Positions 7,003-26,291 of a stretch of 37,181 nucleotides of DNA are shown here, piece after piece. The DNA is taken from positions 1-37,181 of the forward strand of contig JAHDCG010000055.1 of the NCBI GenBank assembly GCA_020629965.1, read 5' to 3'. Within the stretch, counting starts at the first letter, position 1; each line of letters begins with the position of its first letter. The notes beneath the pieces are model-generated. The model was not told the origin of the DNA. It saw only the letters and a list, made by a program, of their open reading frames with translations, and ran no database searches. A program made the translations under genes and the position numbers. The stretch comes from Saprospiraceae bacterium (GTDB lineage Bacteria; Bacteroidota; Bacteroidia; Chitinophagales; Saprospiraceae).

Positions 7003-9762
7003 TTGCAACAAACACGTATAAAATATTTCCTTCTCTTAATTCTGCTCACTCTGAGCGGCATTTCGGCAACAGCCGCCGAAGTTTACGACTTCACCGTTAC
7101 CGTGGTCGATGAAAACGACAGCCCGATTATCGGCGCGAACGTCTATACCGACGACCAAAAATTTACCGGCTCCACCGACCTCGACGGTACCGTCGTACTG
7201 CGCGATTTACTTTACAACGATATTCTCAATTTTTCCTACATCGGCTACAAAACCGTGCGCGTTCCCTTTTTTGAAATCAGAAAACGCGGCGGTAAAATTG
7301 TTATGACGGAAGACGATAATTTGATTGCCGAAATCGTCGTCATCGGCAGGCGCGACGAGGTAGAGGCGGATATTCCTTACGAAGTCAAAAACGTGACGCG
7401 CCAACAAATCGCCCTCACCAATCCGCAGACCGCCGCCGATTTACTGCGCGACCACGCCGGTGTTTTTGTCCAAAAATCACAAATGGGCGGCGGCAGTCCC
7501 GTTATTCGCGGCTTCGAGGCCAACCGGGTGCTGTTGGTTTTGGACGGTGTGCGCATGAATAACGCCATCTATCGCAACGGTCACCTGCAAAATGCCATTA
7601 CCGTCGATGCTTCGATATTGGAGCGCGCGGAGGTCATCTACGGTCCCGGTTCGCTCATTTACGGCAGCGATGCTTTGGGCGGTGTGGTGCATTATCGCAC
7701 ACGTGACCCGAAGCTTTATTTCGGCGAAAAGCAGGACGGCTACGTGTCGGAAATTAACGTGCTGACCCGCTATGCGAGTGCCAACACCGAGAAAACCGTA
7801 CACGCGGATTTGGCCTACGGCAAAAGAAAATGGGGTACGCTGACGAGTCTGAGTTTTACGGATTTTGACGATTTGCGGGCGGGCAGTGTACGTCCGGAAG
7901 GCTACGAGGACTTCGGCAAACGCTACTTTTTCCAACTGCGCGACCGCGATACCAACAGCGACCAATCCATCGAAAATCTGACCGTCGGCAGTAACGGCGA
8001 CACGATTACGAATTATAATTTGCAGGTCGGTACGGCTTACTGGCAGGCGGATTTTTTGCAAAAAATTAAATTTCAACCGACCGAAAATTTTTCTCTAATC
8101 GGTAATCTGCAATATTCGACCTCCAGTGACATTCCGCGCTACGATAATTTGAGCGAAGTAACTTACCGCGCCGGCAGCGGCAGAGACGGCGCCCGACAGC
8201 GGGATTTGCGGTGGTCGGAATGGTTCTACGGCCCGCAAAAACGCTTTTTGTCTTCGATAAAAGGGCAAATTCTCAATCAAAAATACTTCGACCGCGCGAC
8301 AATTATTGCGAGCTATCAATGGATAAACGAAGAGCGCGTCAAGCGCAGATTTAATCGCGCGTCGTCCGATTTTGGTTTGGAAAGTGTGAACGTCTATTCT
8401 TTGACCGCCGATTTTGATAAAAAATACGGCGCGACCAAAAGGCACGAGGTTTCTTACGGCGTCGATTTGACGAGCAACGATGTATTCAGTGTTGCCGGCG
8501 CAACGGATGTCAGTTCGGAAGAACAGCGTTTGGGTTCCAATCTCTCGCGTTATCCTTTGCAGGGCAGCGAGATGAATCTGTTCGGCACTTACGCCGCTTA
8601 CCGTTGGAAATCCGCCGATACGACCTTGGTTTTAAATGCGGGTTTGCGCTATTCCTTCGTCAGCATGTCCTCGGTTTTTTCGCCGAACGACCCCATAGAA
8701 TGGCCGCGTGAGTGGACAACGGGCGACGGTATCGAAAGCACGAATATGGACGTGACCTACGGCGTCGGTGCGACTTACAACACCCGCAGCAAATTGCAAT
8801 TACGCGCTCTGGCATCCAAAGCCTTTCGCTCGCCGAACATCGACGACTTTGCGAAAATTCGGGAAAAAGGCGGTTTTGTCACCATTCCGAATCCCGATTT
8901 GGAACCCGAAAAAGCCTACACCGGCGAGTTGACCATTGGTAAGGAATTCGGCGACTTAAATGCCAAAGAAAACAACGCGTTAAAAGTCAGCGTGACGGGT
9001 TTTTACACCTACTTGCAGGATGCGATTTCGCGCCGCAACGCGCCCCTGCCCGACCCGAGCGGCACGATACCGGCGGCGGAGCGCGGTTTTCTTTTCGACA
9101 TCGACACTTTGGTAACGACGGGCGAAATTCGTATCGACACCTTTGTTACACAGGCAAATTTGAACGCGGAAAACGGGCGGGTGTACGGCATTTCCGCCAA
9201 TGCGCGCGCGCGTTTCGGTCGGTATTGGTCGGCACATGCGGGTGTCAACTACACGCGCGGTCGCATTTCTTTTCGAGACCAATATTTCAGCGAACGCGAA
9301 GGCGTCAAAGAGTTAATCGCCGAAATCGACACCATCGTACCTTTAGACCACATTCCGCCGGTGTACGGTCAGGCGGGTTTGAAATTTAAAAACGACAAGT
9401 GGAAAGTAGAATTTGTCACGCGCTTTACGGGAGCGAAAAGGGTGGAAGACTACGCCGTCAATGCCATCGAATACGACGAAAACAGCGGCACTTTCGAGGT
9501 CGATAAAAGCGGCTCGACGGATAATTTAGACCTCGCGCCGATACGCTACACCTACGATGAAAACGACGAGATTATCGGCGAAGAATTTCTCGGCACCTAC
9601 GGCTACACGACTTTCAACGTCTATACCGCTTGGCAATTCAGCGAAAAATTCAGCCTGAATTTTGCTGTGGAAAATATCACCGACCGGCATTATCGCCCCT
9701 TTGCGTCGGGCGTGAGTGCGCCGGGCAGGAATTTTATCGTTGCGCTGCGGGGGAAATTTTGA
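7003..9762 (+). CDS. TonB-dependent receptor, heme/hemoglobin type
   Basis: This 919-residue outer-membrane transporter has a signal peptide (about 1-24, ending SATAA). A carboxypeptidase-regulatory-like Ig fold follows (about 28-110, with NDSPIIGANVY and STDLDG), then a plug domain (about 125-235) with SPVIRGFEANRVLLVLDG and YGSDALGGVV. The rest is a 22-strand barrel ending in a terminal phenylalanine (VALRGKF), the Omp signature. The plug wording is closest to hemoglobin/transferrin/lactoferrin-type receptors, so heme or heme-protein uptake is the best guess; the substrate is not proven. The only usable start is TTG 7003: the upstream in-frame codons contain no ATG or GTG. It lies 166 bases after the orphan kinase and is convergent with hemA. 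Confidence 0.93.
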   Translation: MQQTRIKYFLLLILLTLSGISATAAEVYDFTVTVVDENDSPIIGANVYTDDQKFTGSTDLDGTVVLRDLLYNDILNFSYIGYKTVRVPFFEIRKRGGKIVMTEDDNLIAEIVVIGRRDEVEADIPYEVKNVTRQQIALTNPQTAADLLRDHAGVFVQKSQMGGGSPVIRGFEANRVLLVLDGVRMNNAIYRNGHLQNAITVDASILERAEVIYGPGSLIYGSDALGGVVHYRTRDPKLYFGEKQDGYVSEINVLTRYASANTEKTVHADLAYGKRKWGTLTSLSFTDFDDLRAGSVRPEGYEDFGKRYFFQLRDRDTNSDQSIENLTVGSNGDTITNYNLQVGTAYWQADFLQKIKFQPTENFSLIGNLQYSTSSDIPRYDNLSEVTYRAGSGRDGARQRDLRWSEWFYGPQKRFLSSIKGQILNQKYFDRATIIASYQWINEERVKRRFNRASSDFGLESVNVYSLTADFDKKYGATKRHEVSYGVDLTSNDVFSVAGATDVSSEEQRLGSNLSRYPLQGSEMNLFGTYAAYRWKSADTTLVLNAGLRYSFVSMSSVFSPNDPIEWPREWTTGDGIESTNMDVTYGVGATYNTRSKLQLRALASKAFRSPNIDDFAKIREKGGFVTIPNPDLEPEKAYTGELTIGKEFGDLNAKENNALKVSVTGFYTYLQDAISRRNAPLPDPSGTIPAAERGFLFDIDTLVTTGEIRIDTFVTQANLNAENGRVYGISANARARFGRYWSAHAGVNYTRGRISFRDQYFSEREGVKELIAEIDTIVPLDHIPPVYGQAGLKFKNDKWKVEFVTRFTGAKRVEDYAVNAIEYDENSGTFEVDKSGSTDNLDLAPIRYTYDENDEIIGEEFLGTYGYTTFNVYTAWQFSEKFSLNFAVENITDRHYRPFASGVSAPGRNFIVALRGKF

Positions 9763-23498: not shown

Positions 23499-25715
23499 TT
23501 ATTTCTGCATCACTACGCGCTGCATCGTACCTTTATTCGTTTTTTGGTCAATGACGACCACGGTCACAAAACTGTGCTTGCTTTGTACATTGATTTTTTC
23601 GTCGAAAGTTCCCGAAAAGTTTGGCAGCGAGCGGTCGTACAGCGCACCGTCGTCGTCCAAAATCGTCAAGCGCAAATCCTTTTTATCGGACTCGAATTGC
23701 AGGCGAAATTCTCCGTCGTTCGGATTGGGAGAAATTATAAAGTTGTCGAGTGTCAAGCCGACATCCCAACATAAAGTATTTTCCTTGTCGGGTTGCGGTT
23801 GTGCGGTTTCCGGTTCGTCCGCCAATTTGAACTTGACGGGCAAATGATAGTCTGCGGCAATATTTTCGCCGTCTTTCACGGCAGGTATCCACTTCGGCAT
23901 TTGCGCGATAACTTCCAATACTGCCTCATCACAACCGCCGCCGATACTGCGCACGATTTCCGCATTTTTAACAGTCCCGTCGGCAGCTACCGTAAATTTG
24001 GAAACCACTACGCCCTGCACATTCGCCTCACGCGCCTCTTCCGGATACTTGATGTTGGTGTAAATAAAATTCAGCATTTCCGACTGCGCACAATTATTGC
24101 GCTCGCTTGCATCCGTGTTATCTTCGCAACCCGGAAAGCGCGGCATTTCATCCGCAGCATCGGTATCCGATTCGCTTGCTTTGCTCTCCGTTTCCTCATC
24201 CGCCAATTTGAATTTCACGGGCAGATTATACTGCACCGCCACCGCTTTTCCGTCGTTCTTGCCCGGTATCCAGTTCGGCATTTCACCGACGATGCGCAGC
24301 ACTTCTTCGTCGCAGCCGCCGCCGATACTGCGCAGGACTTCGGGTTTTGTGATGCTGCCGTCGGCACTCACTACAAAGCGCACGACTACCGTTCCCTGCA
24401 CATCCGCGTCACGCGCCTGCTCCGGGTATATGATGTTGGTGTAAACAAAATTCAGCATTTCCGCTTGTGCACAGCTTTCTTTTTCCTTTAAATCGGGCTT
24501 TTCTTCGCAGCCGGGGAAGCGGGGCATTTCATCGACGACTTTGAAAATCGGGTCGTCCGACTCGTTCAAAAGTACCATTTCCGGCAGTGTGCCGTTTTCC
24601 GCTTTTACGTTGACCATCGCTACGGGTACGCCGAAATTGTTTGCGGCTGTCTCGGCTATGAAAATAACTTCGTCACGATGTTGCGGATATTTCGTCATCA
24701 ATTCCGCAAAACGATTTTCTAAATCCGCAGTAATTTTCGCCTTTTCACCGACGGGCAGATTATTAAAGATTTTGAAAAGGTTGTTAAACTCGGCTTCAAT
24801 CGCCGCTCGGTCAAAATCGTTTTGCATTATCGGAAAAATCGAAAATTCCGCTTTGTCTCCTCTGTCCGCAAAGGCAAAAACGAGGAGCAGAAATGCAGGT
24901 ATGACCGCGAGGTATTTCCATTTCGCCTGCTTGTTTGAAGGTTTCTTTGTCATCATCATAATTCTTTTTTTTAATTGTGATTGGTTAAAATGATTGGCTA
25001 AGGACAACCACATCCGGCCCTGATGTGATTGCCTCAGCAACAGCAGGCCGTACTGTTTCTTTTTAGTATTTTTCAGCACCTCCGCATCGGCGAGGTACTC
25101 GTGTATTTGTCTGAGTGATTTTTTGAAAAAATAAATCGGCGGCGCACACCAAAAAACGATGCTCAACAGTTCTAACAGCAGCACGTCGAGCGTGTGTCGC
25201 TGCGCCAAATGCGCCCGTTCGTGGCGCAGTATTTTTTGATTTTCGGAGTCTTTTAAATCAAAATCCTGCGGCAAAAAAAGCAGATGCAGAAAAGAAAACG
25301 GCGGGTGTTGTTCCGTTGTCAGCAGCGTGTTATTTTCGAGGCGTTCGGCGTTTTTGTACAGTTGAAATATTTGGCGCAAGCCGTAAATAAATCTGCCCGT
25401 CAGCAACAGCACCACGAGAAAATACAGCCCCAAAAGCACATCCGTCAGACCGACGGTCGGCGCGAGTTGCGTTTGCCGCGCCGAAATTTCCACCGCCTCC
25501 ATACCGACAACAACGACGGTCTGCAGATAAACGGCGGCATTTTCGGTCGTTTCCGCCTGCGGCAATTCTAAAAACGGAATCAGCAAACCGCCGATTATCG
25601 CCGCTAAAAGGTACGCCCGATTGCTTTTGAAAAAAGTCTCGCGGCTCAGGGCGCAGGCGTAGATTGCGTACAGCAGCGTCCAACAAATCGTGACTTCAAG
25701 TAAATAGGTGAGCAT
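23499..25715 (-). CDS. BlaR1-type M56 protease fused to two TonB C-terminal domains and a T9SS sorting domain
   Basis: This is a 738-residue protein. The N-terminal part is polytopic (helices near 1-20, 35-50, 90-110, 175-195 and 268-284). It carries the M56 zinc motif HERAH (H165, E166, H169) and a likely third ligand E206 in HEYLAD. After the last helix come about 110 periplasmic residues. Then two near-identical TonB C-terminal modules follow (about 395-505 and 522-632), each with DEMPRFPGCE, YPEQAR/YPEEAR, RSIGGGCDE and LPVKFKLADE. Residues about 656-738 look like a type A T9SS sorting domain: ISPNPNDGEFRLQF, LTILDDDGALYD and a final VVMQK. There is no cleavable signal peptide. With the upstream BlaI-like repressor it forms a BlaI/BlaR1-style sensor pair. 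M56-TonB proteins are common in Bacteroidota, but adding a sorting domain is odd. Confidence 0.85.
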   Translation of the reverse strand: MLTYLLEVTICWTLLYAIYACALSRETFFKSNRAYLLAAIIGGLLIPFLELPQAETTENAAVYLQTVVVVGMEAVEISARQTQLAPTVGLTDVLLGLYFLVVLLLTGRFIYGLRQIFQLYKNAERLENNTLLTTEQHPPFSFLHLLFLPQDFDLKDSENQKILRHERAHLAQRHTLDVLLLELLSIVFWCAPPIYFFKKSLRQIHEYLADAEVLKNTKKKQYGLLLLRQSHQGRMWLSLANHFNQSQLKKRIMMMTKKPSNKQAKWKYLAVIPAFLLLVFAFADRGDKAEFSIFPIMQNDFDRAAIEAEFNNLFKIFNNLPVGEKAKITADLENRFAELMTKYPQHRDEVIFIAETAANNFGVPVAMVNVKAENGTLPEMVLLNESDDPIFKVVDEMPRFPGCEEKPDLKEKESCAQAEMLNFVYTNIIYPEQARDADVQGTVVVRFVVSADGSITKPEVLRSIGGGCDEEVLRIVGEMPNWIPGKNDGKAVAVQYNLPVKFKLADEETESKASESDTDAADEMPRFPGCEDNTDASERNNCAQSEMLNFIYTNIKYPEEAREANVQGVVVSKFTVAADGTVKNAEIVRSIGGGCDEAVLEVIAQMPKWIPAVKDGENIAADYHLPVKFKLADEPETAQPQPDKENTLCWDVGLTLDNFIISPNPNDGEFRLQFESDKKDLRLTILDDDGALYDRSLPNFSGTFDEKINVQSKHSFVTVVVIDQKTNKGTMQRVVMQK
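23820..24533 (-). repeat. Internal duplication of TonB-CTD modules
   Basis: Two in-frame copies of about 333 bases (24201-24533 and 23820-24152) encode similar 111-residue modules joined by a short acidic linker. Shared blocks are DEMPRFPGCE, NFxYTNI, YPExAR, RSIGGGCDE and LPVKFKLADE. Copies differ in many codons, so the duplication is not very recent. Confidence 0.9.
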
Positions 25716-25823: not shown

Positions 25824-26189
25824 TTACTCCTCCTCCAATTTCTCCACCATTTCTCTCAATTCCGCCAAAGTCAAATCCTCCTCTTTCACCAAAAACGAAA
25901 CGAGATTACTCATCGAACCTTCAAAATAATCGCTCACCAATTTTCCTACTCGTTTTTTTGAATAATCTTCTTTGGCTACCAACGGAAAATATTCGTAAGT
26001 GCGTCCGTAGGCTTTGTGTCCCACAAATTCCTTTTTATCCAGAATGCGCACAATCGACGAAATCGTGCTGTGCGGCGGCTTTTTACCGTTTGCTTGTTTC
26101 ATTTCTTCCAAAATGTCACTCACCAGACAGCGTTCTTTTTGCCAAATAATGTGCATGACTTCCTCTTCGGCTTTTGTCAGTTTTTGCAT
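25824..26189 (-). CDS. BlaI/MecI-family transcriptional repressor
   Basis: This 121-residue protein starts QKLTKAEEEVMHIIWQKERC and continues with STISSIVRILDKKEFVGHKAYGRTYEYFPLV, the winged-helix DNA-binding pattern of BlaI/MecI. A C-terminal dimerisation helix pair ends ELREMVEKLEEE. Repressors of this family are inactivated after their paired M56 sensor protease is triggered. The M56 gene is directly downstream in the same direction, 108 bases away and separated by a large hairpin. A promoter box and two palindromes upstream (26226-26291) fit autorepression. There is no beta-lactamase in the window, so the regulated target is unknown, and the partner's TonB domains point to an envelope function instead. 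Confidence 0.93.
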   Translation of the reverse strand: MQKLTKAEEEVMHIIWQKERCLVSDILEEMKQANGKKPPHSTISSIVRILDKKEFVGHKAYGRTYEYFPLVAKEDYSKKRVGKLVSDYFEGSMSNLVSFLVKEEDLTLAELREMVEKLEEE

Positions 26190-26225: not shown

Positions 26226-26291
26226 CAAAGGTATAACGATATTTTCACAAAAGCAACTATCTTTATAGTTTTATAACGTAAAAATACGTTA
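26226..26291 (-). promoter_or_regulatory. blaI-like promoter and candidate operator dyads
   Basis: The minus strand carries TACCTTTG (26226-26233), a perfect -7 box, with a TTG 20 bases further upstream (26254-26256), the usual -33 spacing. The start codon is about 37 bases away. AACTAT-N4-ATAGTT (26255-26270) overlaps the -33 element, and TAACGTA-N4-TACGTTA (26274-26291) lies just beyond. These two dyads are the likely binding sites for the BlaI-like protein. Confidence 0.6.

Follow-up and report, generated by a model that had tools for sequence, protein, structure and literature searches.

An M56 sensor protease of Saprospiraceae that carries tandem TonB domains and a tail related to type IX secretion sorting domains

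A stretch of DNA from a Saprospiraceae bacterium (GenBank assembly GCA_020629965.1, contig JAHDCG010000055.1, positions 1 to 37,181; the full 37,181 nucleotides are referred to as the window) was found to encode a membrane protein that joins a BlaR1-like M56 protease to two TonB C-terminal (TonB_C) domains and a tail resembling the type A C-terminal sorting domain (CTD) of the type IX secretion system (T9SS). The arrangement is real and recurrent in Saprospiraceae. We know of no signal for the M56/BlaI systems of Bacteroidota; with a sensing arm assembled from TonB and T9SS parts, the state of outer-membrane transport becomes a candidate. The arrangement suggests, without proving, that the cell may monitor its outer-membrane transport machines through this arm. 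The reading that we favour, with a probability of roughly 0.4, is a BlaI/M56 proteolytic relay that senses outer-membrane transport via a periplasmic TonB-TonB-CTD arm. If this is true, the CTD would serve within the cell and not simply as a tag for export.

An earlier note on this DNA, made from the sequence alone, had placed an open reading frame at 23499-25715. The coordinates stand and the gene lies on the minus strand; the plus-strand frame across these positions is interrupted by stops. The protein and its parts are as follows:

23499..25715, minus strand: M56-TonB-TonB-CTD sensor protease, 738 aa, ATG start
24816..25715, minus strand: M56 core, residues 1-300, delimited from hydropathy, charge counts, alignment and the BlaR1 match
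24201..24566, minus strand: first TonB_C domain, residues ~384-505
23814..24152, minus strand: second TonB_C domain, residues ~522-634
23502..23747, minus strand: T9SS type-A-like CTD, residues 657-738, a tail of ~80 residues called from profile and predicted fold

The M56 core was characterized by profile, alignment and hydropathy. With the whole protein searched against Pfam, the M56 profile PF05569 scored 65 bits against a cut-off of 31. The zinc site was assigned to H165/H169/E206, with the HERAH motif starting at residue 165, and H165, E166, H169 and E206 are invariant in an alignment of 11 rows that includes the window protein. Hydropathy analysis gave four transmembrane (TM)-like stretches, at residues ~5-23, 34-52, 87-113 and 266-283 (TM4), and an extra hydrophobic stretch at 178-196; both results agree with the zinc site and the several membrane helices read by the earlier note. 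The core matches the BlaR1 structure 8exp (E 3e-4), and charge counts agree with a topology in which the zinc site lies inside and residues 284-738 lie in the periplasm, as in BlaR1 (topology from passages of PMC9834060). The N-terminus is TM1 of the protease, and the N-terminal Sec signal peptide of T9SS cargo is absent. The claim that the protein has no cleavable signal thus holds for its N-terminus; it is less secure for the helix before the arm, which has a signal-peptidase-like end (VFAFA-DR).

Downstream of the core, the TonB_C profile PF03544 scored 137 bits across two stretches. The two modules are 62.5% identical across 112 residues (71% in DNA), which upholds the tandem described earlier and corrects the description of the modules as near-identical. 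An N-terminal part of TonB was not seen in the 738-aa protein, in which TM4 of the protease serves as the anchor; with the TonB domains carried on a protease helix, the suggested link to TonB energy is unsupported. Pfam and NCBIfam revealed no penicillin-binding-type sensor domain, and the two blaR1 models cover only residues ~146-279, far under cut-off, so nothing supports the antibiotic-type sensing that had been proposed. The protein thus resembles the BlaR1/BlaI and MecR1/MecI systems of staphylococci in its HExxH...E zinc site, its four-helix layout by hydropathy, its self-cleavage Phe and its adjoining BlaI/MecI-type partner, and differs from BlaR1 and MecR1 in having TonB_C domains and a CTD in place of a beta-lactam-binding sensor domain. 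A TonB-dependent receptor with plug and CarboxypepD_reg domains is encoded at window positions 7003-9762 and is a possible partner for the TonB domains.

From the window sequence alone, the sorting-domain call is marginal. The tail covers positions 1-72 of 75 of PF18962 (Por_Secre_tail; curated cut-off 27 bits), scoring 13.6 bits within the whole protein and 17.5 bits alone; TIGR04183 was not matched, and the sole NCBIfam match was to a T9SS-dependent M36 family (E 0.013). The case for the type A tail proposed by the earlier note instead comes from the relatives: 13 of 14 M56 tails matched PF18962 at E <= 0.1 (best 9e-14), and 13 of 14 matched TIGR04183 at the same threshold (best 2.5e-13), with PF18962 scores rising from 17.5 bits in the window to 26.7 in L034, a Saprospiraceae metagenome-assembled genome, and 46.4 in L067. 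By these matches in relatives and by its model, the tail is predicted to be a derived type A T9SS CTD.

Structure prediction, which the earlier note had called for together with a profile search, was in line with this assignment. AlphaFold models of the window tail (pLDDT 77, 4 sequences) and of the L034 tail (pLDDT 87.6, 3 sequences) both adopted an immunoglobulin (Ig)-like beta-sandwich. The best Foldseek match of the window tail in the PDB was the CTD of RemA in the F. johnsoniae translocon, at E 7e-3, above the 1e-3 threshold, while the L034 tail gave three matches at E <= 1e-3: a DUF3244 protein, the NucA CTD and the mirolase CTD. VIA-align placed both models among common Ig-like folds, with no T9SS CTD among the best 50 matches listed for each; because such folds are common, the fold alone would not prove a sorting domain. 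The window genome encodes at least 150 sorting domains above cut-off (150 of 404 candidates scored). The tail is like T9SS type A sorting domains (PF18962/TIGR04183) in the profile matches of its relatives, its predicted sandwich fold, its extreme C-terminal position and its PNP motif. It is unlike the usual type A CTD in sitting on an inner-membrane protease without an N-terminal signal peptide, in often having lost GxY, and in forming a subtype of its own.

The search for the same architecture elsewhere, also proposed earlier, yielded 14 M56-TonB-CTD proteins in 14 genomes, comprising the window, L034 and 12 more of the same family, all Saprospiraceae and all with the CTD at the extreme C-terminus; the fusion is thus conserved as an architecture. 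Within the window family the CTD is present in 14 of 26 M56 rows. This is not an unbiased rate, because the regions were partly hand-picked: 40 were chosen, mostly for long frames, among the matches listed (295 genomes, 82 with a match), and of the 4 of these that belong to the window family, 3 were taken since their match spanned TonB and CTD. L018 and L019 are possibly cut by contig or locus ends. Other Bacteroidota have M56 and M56-TonB proteins (annotated under a plasmid match as 'M56 family metallopeptidase' and 'energy transducer TonB') with an M56 core and often TonB_C or other tails; unlike the window family, these carried a type A CTD in 0 of 39 rows, in a search with type A models only, by which a type B CTD would be missed. 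In a quick tree of 65 M56 domains the CTD label was clustered, with 6 changes compared with a shuffled mean of 12.8 (0 of 500 shuffles as low). Its starred branches force at least two changes of the label, and the tree therefore does not show a single gain without any loss. Among open-licence papers, none was found on an M56-TonB-CTD protein; PMC10470040 has one table line concerning an M56 peptidase, the passages of PMC12578637 contain nothing on M56 sensors, and none of the terms sought occurs in PMC12611786.

The gene is preceded by a repressor gene and a candidate operator:

25824..26189, minus strand: BlaI-type repressor (PF03965), 121 aa, directly upstream and in the same direction
26275..26290, no strand assigned: palindrome AACGTA-N4-TACGTT upstream of blaI, candidate BlaI operator

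The neighbour scored 95.9 bits with PF03965 (cut-off 22.6). Each of the 12 CTD-bearing loci open to inspection has a BlaI gene directly upstream, L070 and L188 being outside the count, and so do three loci of this type that lack a good CTD (L073, L076 and L077). The search was positive in 11 of 15 loci; L036, L070 and L078 start at a DNA edge and L035 has no M56 match. L224, L225 and L226 were then added, and L188 has too little upstream DNA. Of 12 aligned BlaIs of this type, 11 retain LVSF near the known BlaI/MecI cleavage site and 10 retain LVSFL. The palindrome is the sole exact copy in the 6.5-Mb genome. At two mismatches or fewer it recurs in 5 of 12 blaI upstream regions, a modest excess over 200 simple shuffles (mean 1.1, maximum 4); in front of blaI, L073 and L074 have an exact copy of its core, and L077 and L076 a copy that differs at one or two positions. 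The TACA-TGTA operator form was found in 1 of the 12 regions. We take the palindrome as a candidate autoregulatory operator.

In the relay that we propose, the arm is anchored in the inner membrane through TM4 and would reach the outer membrane. There its TonB domains would contact TonB-dependent receptors and its CTD would be presented to the SprA-PorV translocon, where a tethered CTD would be able to dock but unable to leave. Whether the arm is free, held or pulled would be relayed via TM4 to the cytosolic zinc domain, which would cut BlaI and lift repression on at least its own operon. Signal peptidase might then cut behind TM4, as in BlaR1, so that signalling ends; the fragment left by the cut, Sec-processed and still with its CTD, could be cleared by the T9SS. 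We infer each of these steps, from docking and signal transfer to BlaI cleavage, shedding and export. All 13 CTD-bearing genomes searched contain a PorV-family gene.

The end of TM4 bears on how the arm might be released. Passages of PMC9834060 report that BlaR1 cleaves itself at Ser283-Phe284 and that its sensor is shed by signal peptidase at Gly331, right behind the last helix. Ser283-Phe284 aligns with residues 242-243 of the window protein, before TM4 (~266-283), and the self-cleavage Phe corresponds to F243, kept in 10 of 11 rows. Self-cleavage of the BlaR1 type would therefore leave the arm anchored, and release by that route was rejected. The released C-terminal part envisaged by the earlier note is thus tenable by signal peptidase, given the TM4 ends of many relatives, and not by self-cleavage. 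In the window protein the following site was picked out post hoc:

24867..24875, minus strand: A281-F282-A283, candidate signal-peptidase site ahead of D284 at the TM4 end

A small signal-peptidase matrix was trained on 41 peptides, encoded by nearby genes and presumed to be signal peptides, whose sites had been picked for an Ala at -1; under this same matrix, the training peptides had a median of 9.9 and a 10th percentile of 4.8. The TM2 exit, where the chain crosses the membrane in the same direction as at TM4, served as the control. In the window sequence, VFAFA-DRGD, the matrix favours the overlapping VFA-FA (score 6.2). TM4 ends scored higher than TM2 exits overall (median 3.5, n=65, against -0.6, n=47; p 2e-9), as did the TM4 ends of the 14 CTD proteins (median 6.4; p 2e-5). 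Signal-peptidase-like motifs occurred in 32 of 46 TM4 ends and 10 of 46 TM2 exits (p 8e-6; 19 of 65 rows omitted for having no TM2 match). Taken singly, neither the A-Q pair (11 against 5) nor A-x-A (8 against 3) differed significantly between TM4 and TM2.

The CTD itself was compared with other CTDs by running a model of the M56 CTDs on 40 genomes. The model retrieved its source M56 proteins together with other proteins, in open frames mostly of 310-760 aa, and many of the non-M56 proteins have starts that by eye resemble signal peptides. PDZ domains are present in 19 of 22 such proteins tested, the exceptions being L088, L181 and L184. Just three proteins of the window genome exceeded 70 bits, namely the M56 protein (95.2) and two PDZ proteins (75.1 and 73.7), the next match scoring 58.1. 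A Gln typical of the subtype is found in 13 of 14 M56 tails, 18 of 19 PDZ tails and 4 of 26 cargo CTDs, and the Phe of F-x-G in 11 of 14, 17 of 19 and 1 of 26, respectively; the 26 cargo CTDs are the window genome's highest-ranking matches to the M56 model and are thus a conservative control. A PDZ-tail model outscored a cargo model on 13 of the 14 M56 tails. The shared residues and the fit to the PDZ model are partly circular, because resemblance to the M56 tails was the criterion for entering the PDZ set; the PDZ share of 19 of 22 is less affected. In three of 20 loci, from three genomes, BlaI, M56 and PDZ-CTD genes are consecutive and in one direction (L170:4729-9165, L179:2286-6194 and L183:1375-5016). 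The M56 proteins of these loci are of another kind, in which Pfam found no TonB domain. Two kinds of M56 sensor are therefore tied to one CTD subtype, one within a single chain and one through gene order.

Several observations weigh against a sensing relay. The window CTD is a weak profile match, lacks the GxY motif that lies near the end of type A CTDs, and has its near-terminal Lys replaced by Arg (by Pro in L034). The CTD is absent from 10 of the 26 M56-TonB rows of the window family, 2 further rows having cut ends, and the relay can therefore manage without it. In BlaI, the staphylococcal scissile Asn-Phe aligns with Phe-Leu here, so that the P1' Phe is not kept. Sites within one mismatch of the palindrome number 12 genome-wide, the exact one included, compared with 17 for a backward control, and we do not claim a genome-wide regulon from the operator pattern. 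The TM4 end scores above 4.8 in only 8 of the 14 CTD proteins (the window protein included) and below it in 6, L034 reaching only -1.9, in a test that was post hoc, on related rows, with Ala-selected training sites and with 18 of 65 rows lacking the TM2 control. Lastly, were TM4 always cut, the arm could not signal.

The last possibility is the core of an explanation in which the protein is plain cargo: TM4 would act as an internal signal peptide, cut in every case, and the gene would yield a membrane protease and a separate TonB-TonB-CTD protein exported through the T9SS. The signal-peptidase-like TM4 end fits this idea, as does shedding of the BlaR1 sensor by signal peptidase in the passages of PMC9834060, and a lipobox-like [AGS]C at the TM4 end is found in 0 of 13 CTD proteins as against 9 of 32 others. 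The 6 of 14 CTD proteins below the training 10th percentile, among them L034 without a site, are hard to accommodate, and in L009 the AFA picked by eye is followed by Pro. The known partners of TonB C-terminal domains are periplasmic, and coupling a sensor to a departing protein would be wasteful; we regard obligate cleavage as unlikely. We hold out equally slim prospects for a bolder version of the sensing idea, in which the last helix of Bacteroidota M56 sensors would be an internal cleavable signal peptide. In the window family, where the arm so freed bears a sorting domain, the sensor would shed its arm, export it, and gauge the T9SS and the TonB receptors by whether the arm is docked, held or gone; the PDZ-CTD proteins encoded behind BlaI-M56 would represent a version of this device split over two genes.

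The strongest rival to the sensing relay, which we consider possible though on balance doubtful, is that the CTD has been domesticated into an Ig-like periplasmic binding or spacer domain that descends from a sorting domain and makes no contact with the T9SS, in line with the reuse as a periplasmic binding module that the earlier note had offered as its alternative. Loss of the GxY Tyr, which is kept in 6 of 14 M56 tails compared with 24 of 26 cargo CTDs (p 0.001), is as domestication would predict, as are the sub-threshold Pfam score of the window tail and a tail in L077 that can still be aligned but has lost PNP. In one close pair, moreover, the CTD is the least conserved of the four parts (41% identity, against 74% for M56); in the same pair, dN/dS was uninformative in that synonymous sites are saturated for both CTD and M56. 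Exporting TonB domains would also make little functional sense. What domestication explains less well is the retention of PNP in 14 of 14 M56 tails, of the terminal position and of the predicted fold, a near-terminal Lys whose frequency is not significantly below that of cargo (8 of 14 M56 tails, 17 of 26 cargo CTDs; p 0.74), and a subtype shared with PDZ proteins whose starts, by eye, mostly look like those of secreted proteins. According to passages of PMC10994853 on solved complexes, the motifs conserved among type A CTDs serve the fold and do not touch the translocon, the near-terminal Lys possibly excepted; loss of GxY by itself therefore does not exclude recognition. A misassembled fusion or a fortuitous resemblance of the tail would suit the sub-threshold match of the window protein taken alone; since 14 proteins from 14 genomes share the domain order, and given the profile and fold results from relatives, we consider such an artefact extremely improbable.

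The sensing relay has partial parallels in Porphyromonas gingivalis and in the T9SS itself. According to passages of PMC7712824, PorA of P. gingivalis has a CTD, binds PorV and feeds PorXY-SigP signalling, which makes it a precedent for the relay idea; unlike the M56 sensor, it is a surface protein acting on PorXY-SigP, with no fusion to a sensor protease. PorU and PorZ, in passages of PMC11285876, are T9SS parts that retain non-cleaved CTDs within the attachment complex. They resemble the window protein in keeping the CTD as a working module and differ in being parts of the attachment complex rather than an inner-membrane sensor.

Some further observations concern the relatives. The CTD of the M56-TonB protein at L225:462-2711 resembles ordinary cargo CTDs more closely than it does the M56 subtype, the cargo model outscoring the PDZ-tail model by 15 bits, and tails may therefore have been swapped. 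By eye, M56 proteins of other Bacteroidota (L189-L223) have receptor-plug-like stretches (VDG...VLKG...KNGV..ITTK) where the CTD would sit, or alternatively charged coiled-coil-like or other tails. A gene with the CTD subtype adjoins a histidine kinase gene in four loci (L171, L174, L176 and L184), in two of the four with PDZ, and in L171 a response regulator gene lies beside them as well. In many Bacteroidota M56 sensors (L005-L034 and L188-L227) the last helix ends in a signal-peptidase-like sequence, for example IFA-QLEG or IETIA-QEK, or in a lipobox-like [AS]C. Such ends suggest wider processing or lipidation of the periplasmic parts of M56 proteins in Bacteroidota, and the signal-peptide-like TM4 end offers a general hypothesis for the group, in which the sensing arm would be shed in a controlled manner.

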